A DNA stretch of 23,207 bases from a virus. Position numbers and translations under genes: made by a program. Below, one piece after another: positions 10,233-17,559 of this stretch. The notes beneath the pieces are model-generated. The model was not told the DNA's origin. It ran no database searches and saw only the letters and a list, made by a program, of their open reading frames with translations. The stretch is from positions 1-23,207 of IMG/VR virus record IMGVR_UViG_3300032246_000222. The stretch is one strand, 5' to 3'. Each line of letters starts with the position of its first letter. The stretch's first letter is position 1.

Positions 10233-12454
10233 TAATTATCCCCTTGACTAGCTTTTAAGTTAGCAGACACTATTACGCATTTTACAGGATCAGTTACAGA
10301 AACCTCAAAAATACGATCACGAGCTGTACCTAATCTGCGCCAAATCGCACGATTCTTATATTTTCCTTGTTGGCCTATTTTTGACCAATGCTCATTGCTC
10401 CAAGTTGAGCCACCATCGTTTGACCAACGTAACATTGCTTGTGGATTAGTTAAAGTATTGTTAGCTGATACTTGATTTGCAAAGCCTAAAATGTCAATTT
10501 GATTTGCACCAATAGTTAATGCGCCATTAGCAGGGATAAAATAAGCACTACCCAAATAGTTATTATTAGTATTATCTGTTTGTGTGCCACCAATACCAAC
10601 GCCCGGCTGAAACTGAATTTGTAATTCATCAAAATATTGACGTTGCAAATCTGCAACCAAATGTGGCGCTCTACGCAATCTGCGAATTTCATTGCCATTA
10701 TCTGTGTAATTATTGGCATCTAAAGAATAAATATTGCCATTTTGCCAATCGCCCACTAAATTTAGATTTTGAAAGTTAGCATGGCAATTAGAGCGATGAC
10801 GATGGTATGTATTGGTGGTATCTACCCATAACCATTTGTGCCATAGTTGAGTTGCTAAGTCATATACCCATGTAATATCTAATGTAGGAAATGAAATAAC
10901 ATAACATTCATGGCCTTCTATTTGATAAGTATAGGCAATAGCATCTGATACTACTTGATTAGCTAAAGTGTTTTCTACTGCATGGGTGCTAATTCTTTCT
11001 GGAAAATACCCATTCATTACTACAATTTCTGCTTGACCACGAGTATTTTTTGCCAAATAAGCAAAAGAATTGCCAATACGAGATATTGAAAATTTAGCAG
11101 CAATACCATGTTGAGAAGATGAGCCAGGAATACGCTGAAAAGCAAATGGGAATGTTCCTACATCTGACCAGACTTCGGAAGTTGTTTCGCCTAATAAATA
11201 GACTTGACCGTGATCTGCTACCAAAGAAACAAGATTATCAGGGCCTGTAAACTTACTTGCAAAGCTCAATCCATAGGTAATTGGACTTAATAAATTAGAA
11301 GCTGCCCATTGTTGAGTGCCAGGATAATTGTAAATAAAATAGTTATCAACAATATCAACTACGTCTGCACCTTGAAACGCACCATCTGTGCTTGGCAATA
11401 CGCTAAAGTTTAAAGCGTACATTGTTCTAGAGGCTACAGTTTGACTGTTATTAATAACATAGTTACCTGTTGATCCTGTGCCTGTGCCAAAAGTAACAGT
11501 AAGGGTTAACCCTGTGCCTGCACCATTAGTAGTTGTAGAAACAGGACTAGCAGGGACAGATGTATAAGCACCTGAAAATGTTTGAGAAAGCGTAGAAACT
11601 GCACCAGAGCCTCCAATTGCCGTAACTGTATAAGTAGCAGGACTATTGCCATAAACACCACCTGTGACCGTTATAGTGTCATTTACAGCATATCCTGTGC
11701 CAGCAGTAGCAATAGAAGTTGTAAGAATTGTGCCACTACCTAAAGCAGTAATAATTGTGCCTGACGTTACGCCTGTGCCTGTGATGGTTTGACCTGGATA
11801 TAACGTACCGCTAGTTGCTGTTACGGTTAAAGTTGTGCCTGATGTTGAAGCCGTTAAAACTGATGCAACTGCTACAGAAGTCATTGTTATTGCTGTCGAA
11901 ATAGTAACAGAATTATTAATAGTCCAGCTTGTGCCTGATCCTCCTGTAATAACAGTAGCATTAGGAACTCCAATACCAAATAAAGCTTGCCCTGTGGTTA
12001 TTGTTCCACTTGATACGCTAACAATCGTTAAAGTTGTGCCTGAAATAGTAGCATTAAAAGTTGCTGTAGCAGGGGTAGAAATACGCCATGTATAACGATA
12101 TGAGCCGTCTGTAATATAGACGTTTAAACCGTTATCTGTAATTCCTACGTTGCCTGTGCTAGTGTTTAATTGACCTATGATGGTAGGTGTAAAGTTGCTT
12201 GTTAAAATATAAACGTATGCTCCACAGACTGCTACCAAATAGCTACCACCTGATAGCGTTCTCATGCCCCTTACTTGAGCTTGAGCAGATAATAGAACTT
12301 GAGAAGTAAGACCAGGAGTAGGATATAAAGCAACAACGCCTCGTGTGCCTTGACCTTTAGCTGGATCAATTTCAGGCCTCCAATTGATACATTCTTGAGC
12401 ATCTTGATATATAGAGGGGGCTGTATAGGCTGCGCCTACGAATCCAAAGTCCAT
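10232..12454 (-). CDS. gp10-like packaged-DNA stabilisation / tail hub protein with large insertion, 740 aa
   Basis: Residues 1-130 and 346-740 fit the P22 gp10-type stabilisation protein. The N terminus has CINWRPEIDPAKG, and after the insert come GADVVDIVDNYFIYNYPGTQ, GQVYLLGETTSEVWSDVG and FPFAFQRIPGSSSQHGIAA. In P22, gp10 (472 aa) binds under gp4 and closes the head channel. Without residues about 131-345 this protein would be about 525 aa. The insert is Ser/Thr/Gly-rich beta repeat material, described separately. The rest (about 560-740) includes WVYDLATQLWHKW and an RRLRRAPHL segment. The gene shares TAATG junctions with both neighbours, the gp4-like gene upstream and the 78-aa gene downstream. 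Confidence 0.85.
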   Translation of the reverse strand: MDFGFVGAAYTAPSIYQDAQECINWRPEIDPAKGQGTRGVVALYPTPGLTSQVLLSAQAQVRGMRTLSGGSYLVAVCGAYVYILTSNFTPTIIGQLNTSTGNVGITDNGLNVYITDGSYRYTWRISTPATATFNATISGTTLTIVSVSSGTITTGQALFGIGVPNATVITGGSGTSWTINNSVTISTAITMTSVAVASVLTASTSGTTLTVTATSGTLYPGQTITGTGVTSGTIITALGSGTILTTSIATAGTGYAVNDTITVTGGVYGNSPATYTVTAIGGSGAVSTLSQTFSGAYTSVPASPVSTTTNGAGTGLTLTVTFGTGTGSTGNYVINNSQTVASRTMYALNFSVLPSTDGAFQGADVVDIVDNYFIYNYPGTQQWAASNLLSPITYGLSFASKFTGPDNLVSLVADHGQVYLLGETTSEVWSDVGTFPFAFQRIPGSSSQHGIAAKFSISRIGNSFAYLAKNTRGQAEIVVMNGYFPERISTHAVENTLANQVVSDAIAYTYQIEGHECYVISFPTLDITWVYDLATQLWHKWLWVDTTNTYHRHRSNCHANFQNLNLVGDWQNGNIYSLDANNYTDNGNEIRRLRRAPHLVADLQRQYFDELQIQFQPGVGIGGTQTDNTNNNYLGSAYFIPANGALTIGANQIDILGFANQVSANNTLTNPQAMLRWSNDGGSTWSNEHWSKIGQQGKYKNRAIWRRLGTARDRIFEVSVTDPVKCVIVSANLKASQGDN
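11420..12064 (-). repeat. Nested beta-repeat insertion inside the gp10-like gene
   Basis: Codons about 131-345 encode two copies of a phage beta module with the pattern SGTTLT(I/V)...SGT...GQ...G.GV...T.IT. Copy one spans about 135-193. Copy two begins at about 202 (STSGTTLTVTATSG) and is interrupted after GTIITALGSG (about 241). It resumes near 328 with TGNYVINNSQTVAS. The interruption (about 245-325) is another known kind of repeat, starting GTGYAVNDTITVTGG and including GSGAVSTLSQTFSGAYTS. The modules look like surface-exposed decorations. On the + strand the region reads as a spurious frame at 11835-12095. Confidence 0.7.
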
Positions 12455-13431
12455 TATCTAAAGAATCCACCAGAAAGAATCCAACCAGCATCTTTTTGAC
12501 GAGATGCCAACATTGCATCAGCAAATCTTGCAGATTGCACAGGTTTCATGTTTGTACGTTTTACAGTTGCTTTTGCTTGTGCTGCGTATGCGTTAATCAT
12601 GCCTATTTGCGTAGGATTGACTTTGCCATACATAGGCATTAATCGTTCTGCCAAACACCATCTTAATGCCATTGAATAACCTTGTGGCAAAATTACTGGG
12701 TCATAAAGACTTGCATAATTTTGAAACAAATTGTCTGTAAAGATGTGCATTTCACCTTGCGATGGATTAGGCCATACATAAATGTTGCCTAATGTTTCGC
12801 TTGGCTGATAATAAAGCGCTTTAGGCCAAGGGCCGTTTAACGTCTTTAAACCAATCATTTCATATTCTTCAACCGCCAATATAGCAATAGGGTAATCTAA
12901 ACCACCATTGTTAATAGGAATACCGTTAGAGTTGGTATTAATCCTTACAAACGCTGAATCAATGCTTAATGGGCGTTGATAGTAAAGATTAATGGTTTCA
13001 GAAGTAATAGCAGTTGTATATGCAATATTTAATTGATATGTGCCTGCTTCGTTGACGTTATTGCCTGCACCTGTAAGCATTGCAACAATTTTAGTTCCTG
13101 ATGTAATGCCTGTACCACTAAGGGTTTGCCCTACATTGATAGCCCCTGAACTAATCCCTGTTACTGTCAAAATATTACCAGAAATTGAACCTGTGATAAT
13201 TGCGCCAATTTGACCGGTTGGCCCAATAGTATATTGAGTTTGTCCTGGCACAATCGGAAATACAATTTCATTCTTGTAATAAACCATCATTTCTTCGTTT
13301 GACCATTGATCTACAAGATCATTGAGCATATCAAACGCATCAGCAGTTGCTTCAGGAGTTGGAGTTTCACCAGCTTCTAATGCACCTATGTCTTTTAAAG
13401 CTCTAGAAATAATGTCTATTGGCTGGGTCAT
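12454..13431 (-). CDS. gp4-like head-tail adaptor with beta insertion, 325 aa
   Basis: The N terminus (IISRALKDIGALEAGETPTPEATADAFDMLNDLVDQWS, about residues 8-44) is the helical start of P22 gp4-type adaptors. The C terminus has a helical region with LRWCLAERLMPMYGK and ATVKRTNMK. The segment after YTIGPTG (about 66-73) is normally followed by the strand RP..I.SAFVRI. Here YQRPLSIDSAFVRI comes about 80 residues later because of a beta-module insertion. P22 gp4 is 166 aa; longer versions of about 200-250 aa exist in other phages. It should bind the portal bottom and the gp10-like hub. Its stop and the gp10-like start share TAATG. Confidence 0.8.
   Translation of the reverse strand: MTQPIDIISRALKDIGALEAGETPTPEATADAFDMLNDLVDQWSNEEMMVYYKNEIVFPIVPGQTQYTIGPTGQIGAIITGSISGNILTVTGISSGAINVGQTLSGTGITSGTKIVAMLTGAGNNVNEAGTYQLNIAYTTAITSETINLYYQRPLSIDSAFVRINTNSNGIPINNGGLDYPIAILAVEEYEMIGLKTLNGPWPKALYYQPSETLGNIYVWPNPSQGEMHIFTDNLFQNYASLYDPVILPQGYSMALRWCLAERLMPMYGKVNPTQIGMINAYAAQAKATVKRTNMKPVQSARFADAMLASRQKDAGWILSGGFFR
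12985..13203 (-). repeat. Beta-module insertion in the gp4-like gene
   Basis: Codons about 77-149 encode GSISGNILTVTGISSG, then GQTLSGTGITSGTKI and a closing strand ending TSETINLYY. The pattern is the same as the two modules in the adjacent gp10-like gene (for example SGTTLTVTATSG and GQTITGTGVTSGT), with about 60% residue identity by eye over the conserved half. The flanks join smoothly into an ordinary gp4-like fold when the insert is removed, so it appears to be a discrete insertion. Confidence 0.65.
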
Positions 13432-15321: not shown

Positions 15322-17559
15322 TTATCCTACTAGAAGTCTGCGAGATGTACCACCACTATCTGTAATTGTTATATATCCTGCTGGGGTTAATATTCCTGCT
15401 GTATATGTGCCAAATCTAATTGTTCCTGCACCTTTTGGTGCTAATGACAAAGTAACATCTGTGTCTGAACCTTGGGCAGAAATAGCAACAACTTTGCTTG
15501 CTGTTGTAGCACCTGTCACTTGTAAATAATCAACAGCAGAAGTTGTATTAGAAACTCGCATTTGTTCTAAAGTAACATTATTTGTGTAGAAACGAATATT
15601 TCCAGTACCAGCAGATGAAGCATATAAACTACCATCAGACTGTAATCCTAGTCCTGCTACTCCACTAAAGGATAGGGTAGGAGTTCCGTAGATTGCTGTG
15701 GTGGTTGTCGGAACATAAGTATTAACTGTAGTGCCAACTTCAACTTGAGGAGCAACAATAGTGACAGTTTTTGATGTTCCAGTAAAAGAATAATTTGTAC
15801 CATCTTCTGATATTAAAAGTTGTACACCAGCCGTACTTACTGAAGCTGTTATTGATAATCTCCACCAACCACTTCCTACATTAGTAGAAGAATAAGAAGT
15901 TGGAGAACTAATAATATTTGCTGAAAATGCACCTGTTGTTAAATTAAAAAATACACCTTGTGCTGCGGCAGAAGCATAAATACCAAAATAATTAGCAGTT
16001 CCAGCTTTTGCATAAATGCTGTAAGTAAATATGTTTGGTGTTGATAAAATTTGTGAAATTTCATGGTTACCAGTTCCAGTACCAGTATTCATCAAAAATG
16101 CTGTAGTGCCGCCAAAAGGGTCAGATTGACCGCTTGTTAAAGTTACATTTGTTGCCGCCCAAGACGCATTAGTTAAATCACTACTTCTTACAAATAAATT
16201 ATTACCAGTACCTTTTAATACTTCTGTCTGTCCAGTAATAGTAGTAAATGTACCTGCGGCTGGGGTAGTTCCACCAATAACTGTGTTGTCTATTGTGCCG
16301 CCTGTGATTGCAGGAGTTATCAAAGATGCGCTTGTAGCCAAAGCTACAACTGTTCCTGAGCCTGATGTGCTATAGCTTGTTCCCCATGCGCTGCCTGTGC
16401 TATTTGGTATTCCAGAGCCAGGATAAACCATTGTGCTAGAAGCATTAATTGTGATTGCAGCAGAACCATTATAGGTTGTACCGCTACTAAATGTAATGTT
16501 TGTACCAGCAGTTAGATTAAATAAATTACTACCTAATGCTACTCCTGAGATTGTGCTATTTGACAATGCACCATTAGGAATACTAGTCAAACTTGCGCCT
16601 GATCCACTAAATACTGTTGCTGATAATGTGCCTGTATTAGGTACAAAAGATAGTTTTGTAGAGCTAGTAGTAGCAGCATTATTGCCTGTTGTTGCGCCTG
16701 ATAAAACAGGGTAATAAGTAGAAACAGAGCTTGTATTGTCAGTAATGGCTATATTTGTAGCATTTGTGGCTGTTGTTGCACTTGTCGCTGTGCTGGCGTT
16801 GCCTGTCAATGCACCTACAAAAGTTGTAGAAGTAACGCTAGTTAAGCCTGCAATGGTAGTTGCTGTGCCGCCCAAACTAATAGCAGTTGATCCTACGGTA
16901 ATACTAGAGTTAGTAAGGGCAGAGTTAGGGATGCTTGTTAAACTCGCCCCAGAGCCGCTAAAAACAGTCGCAGATAGCGTTCCGGTAGATGGGTTGTATT
17001 GATACTTAGTAGAGCTTGTATATTCTGTTGATAGACTTCCACTTGTTTGGTTAGCAAACAAAGGATAACGAGTTGCATTTGTAGTGGTGTCATCGGTAAC
17101 AGAAGCGTAAAAAGTAGGCGTTGTCCAAGAAGGGGCGCTTCCTGTCGTTGCTGTTAAAACTTGACCTGTTGTGCCGTTTGTTAAATAAGCCGTATTTCCA
17201 GAACTTGACTGATAAACAAGTGTATTTGCGCCACCAAGCTGTAAATTTGTTGCAGTTGAAGCTATGCCATTTAAAGAGCCTACAAAGCCACCATTAGCCG
17301 ATAAAACGCCTGTAGAGGGGTTAAAACTAAGCTTAGACGATGTAACGCTAAGACTTGTGACTTGACCTGTATTAACTGCTGAAAAAGTGGGATAGAACGT
17401 GCCTGATGCTGTTGTATCAATAATGCCAATACTTTCAGTAGCAGAAACAACAAAAGGCTGACCTTGACCTAGAAAAGTATTAAATGACCCATCTAAGTTA
17501 AAGTAAGCCTGAACAGGCAGAATATTCTGGTCTGTCGTTAATGCTGGCCCTATAGCCAT
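15322..17559 (-). CDS. Large tail fibre with repeats and carbohydrate-binding-like domain, 745 aa
   Basis: Order of parts: an N-terminal anchor (about 10-40, LPVQAYFNLDGSFNTFLGQG) shared with the gene upstream. Then come three related shaft units near 48-90, 155-198 and 272-315, each with YP...TG...TSS.KLSF.P.TG.LSA-like order. A Gly/Ser/Thr-rich stretch follows. A jelly-roll-like domain (about 443-615; FTYSIYAKAGTANYFGIYA, VGSGWWRLSITASV, APQVEVGTTVNTYVP) resembles carbohydrate-binding modules in fibres. The C-terminal domain (about 650-745; VDYLQVTGATTASKVVAIS, then LAPKGAGTIRFGTY and GYITITDSGGTSRRLLVG) is a common fibre end. It should be a long trimeric fibre binding surface sugar. Apparent frames on the other strand here are by-products of Ala/Thr/Val-rich codons. 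Confidence 0.88.
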   Translation of the reverse strand: MAIGPALTTDQNILPVQAYFNLDGSFNTFLGQGQPFVVSATESIGIIDTTASGTFYPTFSAVNTGQVTSLSVTSSKLSFNPSTGVLSANGGFVGSLNGIASTATNLQLGGANTLVYQSSSGNTAYLTNGTTGQVLTATTGSAPSWTTPTFYASVTDDTTTNATRYPLFANQTSGSLSTEYTSSTKYQYNPSTGTLSATVFSGSGASLTSIPNSALTNSSITVGSTAISLGGTATTIAGLTSVTSTTFVGALTGNASTATSATTATNATNIAITDNTSSVSTYYPVLSGATTGNNAATTSSTKLSFVPNTGTLSATVFSGSGASLTSIPNGALSNSTISGVALGSNLFNLTAGTNITFSSGTTYNGSAAITINASSTMVYPGSGIPNSTGSAWGTSYSTSGSGTVVALATSASLITPAITGGTIDNTVIGGTTPAAGTFTTITGQTEVLKGTGNNLFVRSSDLTNASWAATNVTLTSGQSDPFGGTTAFLMNTGTGTGNHEISQILSTPNIFTYSIYAKAGTANYFGIYASAAAQGVFFNLTTGAFSANIISSPTSYSSTNVGSGWWRLSITASVSTAGVQLLISEDGTNYSFTGTSKTVTIVAPQVEVGTTVNTYVPTTTTAIYGTPTLSFSGVAGLGLQSDGSLYASSAGTGNIRFYTNNVTLEQMRVSNTTSAVDYLQVTGATTASKVVAISAQGSDTDVTLSLAPKGAGTIRFGTYTAGILTPAGYITITDSGGTSRRLLVG
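16573..16632 (-). repeat. Fibre repeat copy 2 (codons 310-329)
   Basis: This encodes the 20 residues from GTLSATVFSG to SLTSIPN, identical in protein sequence to copy 1 at 16924-16983. The codons differ at 17 of 20 positions: 43 of 60 bases match and the longest shared run is five bases. The repeats are 117 codons apart. Confidence 0.9.
16924..16983 (-). repeat. Fibre repeat copy 1 (codons 193-212)
   Basis: This is the first copy of the perfectly conserved 20-residue segment of the large fibre. It uses more G/C-ending codons (for example GCG and ACG) than copy 2 at 16573-16632. All 17 differences are silent: 16 at third codon positions and one at the first position of a leucine codon. Confidence 0.9.

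Follow-up and report, generated by a model that had tools for sequence, protein, structure and literature searches.

The gp10-like protein encoded at this locus raises the question of whether it carries a module inserted into a second module that is itself inserted into the protein fold, and how such an arrangement could have arisen. The window analysed here is a 23,207-base viral record from a P22-like freshwater phage. Its 740-aa open reading frame matches PHROG 578 (head closure Hc3) with an E value of 5.1e-95, a profile match over the body of the protein. A profile of 49 relatives matches the solved structures of the needle head protein 7eeq (E 9.2e-21) and the stabilization protein 9vyg (E 2.6e-16), as well as P22 gp10 8tvr (E 7.2e-5) and 7sg7 (E 1.3e-4). 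On this profile evidence, the protein is a homologue of P22 gp10, the head closure or tail hub protein. It resembles P22 gp10, the gene 8 protein of 7sg7, and the needle head protein of 7eeq in body profile and in P22-type gene order; however, these solved proteins contain 442-472 aa, and the 740-aa window protein has a nested insert and a second, smaller variable stretch close to the C terminus. The neighbouring genes are of P22 type (PF16510 P22_portal and PF11651 P22_CoatProtein), in the order portal-scaffold-coat-...-gp4-gp10. The gp4-like gene adjoins gp10; the two abut at 12454, with no gene between them. In other loci (L083, L416, L409, L415, and others), the gap between gp4 and gp10 is a hot spot that holds free-standing GIY-YIG/HNH endonuclease or fibre-like genes. 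The structural block of the window also encodes a 745-aa protein (15322-17559, minus strand) that has no Pfam or PHROG match.

Table 1. Positions of the gp10 insert, its parts, and the two neck genes in the window.
Feature	Position	Strand	Evidence
gp10-like head closure / tail hub protein, 740 aa	10232..12454	(-)	phrog_578 and solved-structure profile matches
Complete insert at a beta-hairpin turn in the gp10 body, residues 126-345: A1, then A2 interrupted by B	11420..12079	(-)	missing in 76 insert-free homologues, where the loop has 9-11 residues
Module A1, residues 126-195	11870..12079	(-)	A profile 39.3 bits; predicted strands 130-149, 156-160, 168-173, 176-195
A2 opening part, three strands, residues 196-238	11741..11869	(-)	A profile 38.3 bits; strands 198-214, 223-225, 233-238
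Module B within the A2 strand 3-4 hairpin, residues 239-322	11489..11740	(-)	non-gp10 B profile E 6.6e-19; B-less relatives join ITAL to GTGTGG
B turn GGSGA, residues 281-285; site of module C in relatives, empty in the window	11600..11614	(-)	C present at this turn in L097 and in 11 further distinct gp10
A2 closing strand, residues 323-345	11420..11488	(-)	20.8 bits alone; best closing half in the protein; strand 330-348
gp4-like tail adaptor with one A module (about residues 77-148 of 325 aa)	12454..13431	(-)	A profile E 2e-30; phrog_12985 and phrog_637 head-tail adaptor Ad3

The window gp10 sequence runs from RYTWRI through 220 residues to YALNFSVLPSTDGAFQGA, and insert-free relatives read RYTWVA-STN-TFTTLPST-DGPWQGA uninterrupted. 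Because these homologues join both flanks directly, the insertion site in the gp10 body is real. A sequence-only reading of the window had recognized a gp10-like protein interrupted at one site, which both the PHROG 578 match and the insert-free homologues bear out. It placed the insert at 11420-12064; the place is correct, but the start lies a few residues earlier, at about 12079.

The central observation is that the second A module, A2, is split by B. For this test, the A profile was built only from gp4 modules and from the gp10 modules of B-less relatives, all B-bearing sequences being left out. With the two halves of A2 rejoined, the match scores 62.6 bits, as compared to 39.0 bits with B left in place and -6.0 bits for B alone. 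None of 2000 shuffled closing halves reaches 62.6 bits (highest shuffle, 50.8), and when every window of the protein is tried as the closing half, the best one begins at residue 323, directly behind B. The shuffles and the all-windows control rule out chance or low-complexity similarity as the cause of the split. B-less relatives have the same A2 joint, with IITAL continuing directly into GTGTGGTGTY. A profile of B drawn from 43 copies outside gp10 matches window residues 247-322 across nearly its whole length. The window gp10 thus has a host module on both sides of its guest, a guest that occurs independently elsewhere, and homologues in which the site is empty. The earlier proposal that a second A-type module is interrupted by a different repeat and then resumes is therefore confirmed. 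Its picture of two A modules needs one adjustment, in that the pair is a tandem unit and a single A was not met among the gp10 matches listed.

The predicted structure agrees with this division. The AlphaFold model of the window gp10 has an overall pLDDT of 80.2, with 10-residue block means above 90 for most A blocks and between 80 and 90 for most B blocks. Each A is predicted to form four strands, and B falls between strands 3 and 4 of A2. The two are modelled as separate strand sets, and the single continuous domain that would have contradicted the sequence-only reading does not appear. The GGSGA turn of B sits between predicted strands 274-280 and 285-293. In the model of the L097 gp10, which carries a third module, C, this module is poorly predicted, with 10-residue blocks mostly at pLDDT 40-65. 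The places of insertion in A2 and in B are hairpin turns, as is, judging from the sequence of insert-free relatives, the place in the gp10 body. A second length-variable stretch lies near the gp10 C terminus (10445-10588, minus strand; residues about 623-670) and is modelled with low confidence; it is absent from the insert-free gp10 of L083 and elsewhere reaches up to ~60 residues over the shortest form.

Relatives were collected from viral scans (best 80 loci each), a genome scan, and named phages, affording 304 distinct gp10 sequences. Only four architectures occur among them: no insert (76), A-A (113), A-A(B) (103, the window type), and A-A(B(C)) (12), counts that depend on the queries and on the best 80 loci per scan and are not natural frequencies. 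Insert lengths fall into classes without overlap, at 9-11, 147-157, 231-241, and 320-327 aa, respectively, and length class and B profile are concordant in every case. Empty sites are therefore available at each level, in 76 gp10 without the insert, 113 without B, and 103 without C. The 76 insert-free proteins rule out that the region is an ancestral part of all homologues, the case that had been named as refuting a nested insertion. In the 12 longest proteins, C lies in a turn of B; in L097, B rejoined over C reaches 121.3 bits, against 83.2 for the best shuffle. Among the matches listed in the viral scans (best 80 loci each), no gp10 has just one A, an absence that is not proof, so the first step of the build-up is not seen. 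Likewise, none of the 304 sequences (best 80 loci per scan) has B without the A pair.

The modules also occur outside gp10. B stands alone in unrelated phage proteins, the source of the 43 copies used above, and C is free-standing in many others. The gp4 of relatives carries one or two A modules, and two tandem A modules are found in gp4 of L206, L026, L140, and others, in all gp10 classes except the small A-A(B(C)) one. Two open reading frames starting at 1406 and 1649 in L481 and L482 encode giant proteins of about 1540 aa in which C-type repeats predominate and a single A module is interspersed. Outside gp10, the loci examined yielded no protein with the A(B) composite. When A and B were scanned against Pfam, no matching family was found, and queries with A, B, or C against solved structures gave nothing convincing. 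B shows weak matches to antibody light chains (E about 0.01) that look compositional; the predicted model is beta-rich, and no Pfam Ig family was matched. In tblastn searches with A and B alone against named phages, almost nothing was detected, for which the BLAST low-complexity filter may be the cause.

These data make it probable that mobile beta-rich modules have accreted in the hub protein gp10 as a nested stack, which varies by recombination and likely forms six outer protrusions. A tandem A pair sits in a beta-hairpin turn of the gp10 body, B sits in the hairpin between strands 3 and 4 of the second A, and in some relatives C sits in a hairpin turn of B. Every insertion falls at a hairpin turn, those of A2 and B being rich in Gly, Ser, and Thr, and for this reason the host module still closes around its guest. 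This closure is shown by sequence, by empty-site homologues, and, for A and B, by predicted strands. Homologous recombination would then swap the A2-B(-C) tract between conserved flanks, so that the stack varies among related phages.

Such tract swapping is seen in one near-identical pair, the only one for which a recombination tract was read closely. L064, which lacks C, and L416, which carries it, are nearly the same in gp4 and in most of gp10. Their identity is 93-100% to about gene nt 600, 77-87% over nt 600-1140, and then mostly 95-100%. The divergent tract extends from the A1/A2 border to just past the insert and contains the 270 nt of C; the difference is a replacement tract and not a clean insertion. 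A divergent A2-B tract that brings C points to cassette exchange by homologous recombination. Further backing comes from extra divergence restricted to the insert, which is less alike than the body by more than 0.08 in 11 of 113 pairs with a body identity of at least 0.90, pairs that share sequences and are not independent; three control regions give 0. The C modules of L405 and L097 are 96% identical in amino acids and have 90% of codons identical, with bodies at 87% and 59%, a likeness that would fit a recent exchange of C. Since tract replacement, and not fresh insertion, has moved the outer layer at least, the nested state of the window may itself have arrived as a ready-made cassette.

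Shuffling of this kind could also proceed with no benefit to the phage. The insert would then be neutral baggage, beta repeats being moved about by recombination and by homing endonucleases at the gp4-gp10 junction. GIY-YIG/HNH genes are indeed often found there, and are more common with C (6/12) than with A-A(B) (10/96; Fisher p 0.002). However, this association is lost when independent pairs are drawn with regard to the tree (median p 0.375), and homing endonucleases are accordingly rejected as the driver of the spread of C. In addition, reading frames are kept in >200 distinct inserted gp10 despite 30-45% module divergence. We regard neutral shuffling as unlikely. A somewhat less probable reading is that the whole A1-A2(B) cassette was put together outside gp10, perhaps in a fibre or a different neck protein, and came into gp10 as one piece in a single event. 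Cassette exchange is seen, no single-A gp10 appears among the matches listed, and tandem A-A occurs also in gp4, all as this reading would have it; but the absence of the A(B) composite from the non-gp10 proteins examined argues against it, as does the abundance of B-less A-A gp10 (113 of the 304).

Layer-by-layer accretion in gp10, the reading preferred here, can be compared with trees of the gp10 body built without the insert (quick trees with SH-aLRT support). Inserted and insert-free gp10 are separated by a branch of 100% support. The A-A layer requires a single change on the body tree and C requires 10 among 11 rows; B requires 4 among inserted rows, on a tree that leaves the order of A-A and A-A(B) unpolarised. 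The outer layers are therefore the labile ones, and the distribution of C is nearly as scattered as that of shuffled labels. Two rounds of insertion, proposed from the sequence as the simplest history, hold as a minimum, but B needs four changes and some relatives underwent a third round, that of C into B. Within the A-A(B) class, A and B distances correlate with body distances (Mantel r 0.29-0.65, p 0.001). Those of B (r 0.65) follow the body tree fairly well, which suggests that B is vertically inherited much of the time. The first A2 loop is several residues longer in many B-less A2 than in nearly every B-bearing A2, which argues against simple deletion of B. That the long form is ancestral, with insert-free and B-less gp10 as losses from an old stack eroding outside in, is very improbable: A-A(B) does occur across most lineages of the inserted clade, with A-A groups among them, but the more distant relative Rhodoferax phage P26218 has an insert-free gp10 (and a gp4 without an A module), the solved family members are merely 442-472 aa, A, B, and C are each found as modules in unrelated proteins, and the B-less ITAL-GTGTGG joints are seamless and look like different A2 alleles rather than scars.

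Accretion in gp10 may, more specifically, be recursive. Each module would bring a hairpin landing site for the next, the hub would grow outward with layer age falling from the inside (A-A) to the outside (C), and swaps would occur by homologous recombination between module-bearing phages. We put this forward tentatively, as a possibility that builds on the single tree change of A-A and on the approximately ten gains, losses, or exchanges of C.

The P22 virion has 12 gp4 copies with six gp10 copies below them (PMC5850374). Given this P22 arrangement, the outer face of the neck and hub would most likely bear six modular protrusions. Six stacks beside the A modules of gp4 would create a decorated neck surface that is adjustable. 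Such decoration may help the phage to adsorb weakly to cells or particles. Ig-like modules of other phages have been linked to adhesion (PMC7602432). For A, B, and C, whose fold need not be Ig-like, a part in adhesion is thus a guess that carries moderate weight.

Beta modules are known on other phage structural proteins, such as Hoc, pb10, gp17 of N4, and the phi29 coat with its BIG2 insertion domain (PMC7602432). The gp10 modules are like these in being mobile beta modules that decorate virion proteins, some as insertion domains, with adhesion proposed. They differ in that A and B lack a Pfam match, that A, B, and C lack a solved relative, and that they are nested in one another within the hub. 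Nested domain insertion has been described up to six levels (Protein Sci 2026, PMC13114784), with the same A1-B1-C-B2-A2 hierarchy as found here. However, those cases are architectures of single cellular proteins, whereas the layers of phage gp10 vary between close relatives, so that the build-up is visible in populations. An incomplete literature search found no published description of such a gp10 series, and as far as searched, a natural nested-insertion series within one phage gene is new.

Nested insertion is as a rule deduced from individual proteins in their final form; the gp10 family offers four successive natural states. Since every level has its empty site and one near-identical pair differs in the outermost layer, the order of insertion, the hairpin-turn rule, and the mode of tract exchange become testable. 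Almost all steps (none, two, one nested, two nested) survive among the relatives, and Russian-doll growth can be traced in nature in an essential, genome-sealing hub that tolerates ~220-320 inserted residues per subunit.
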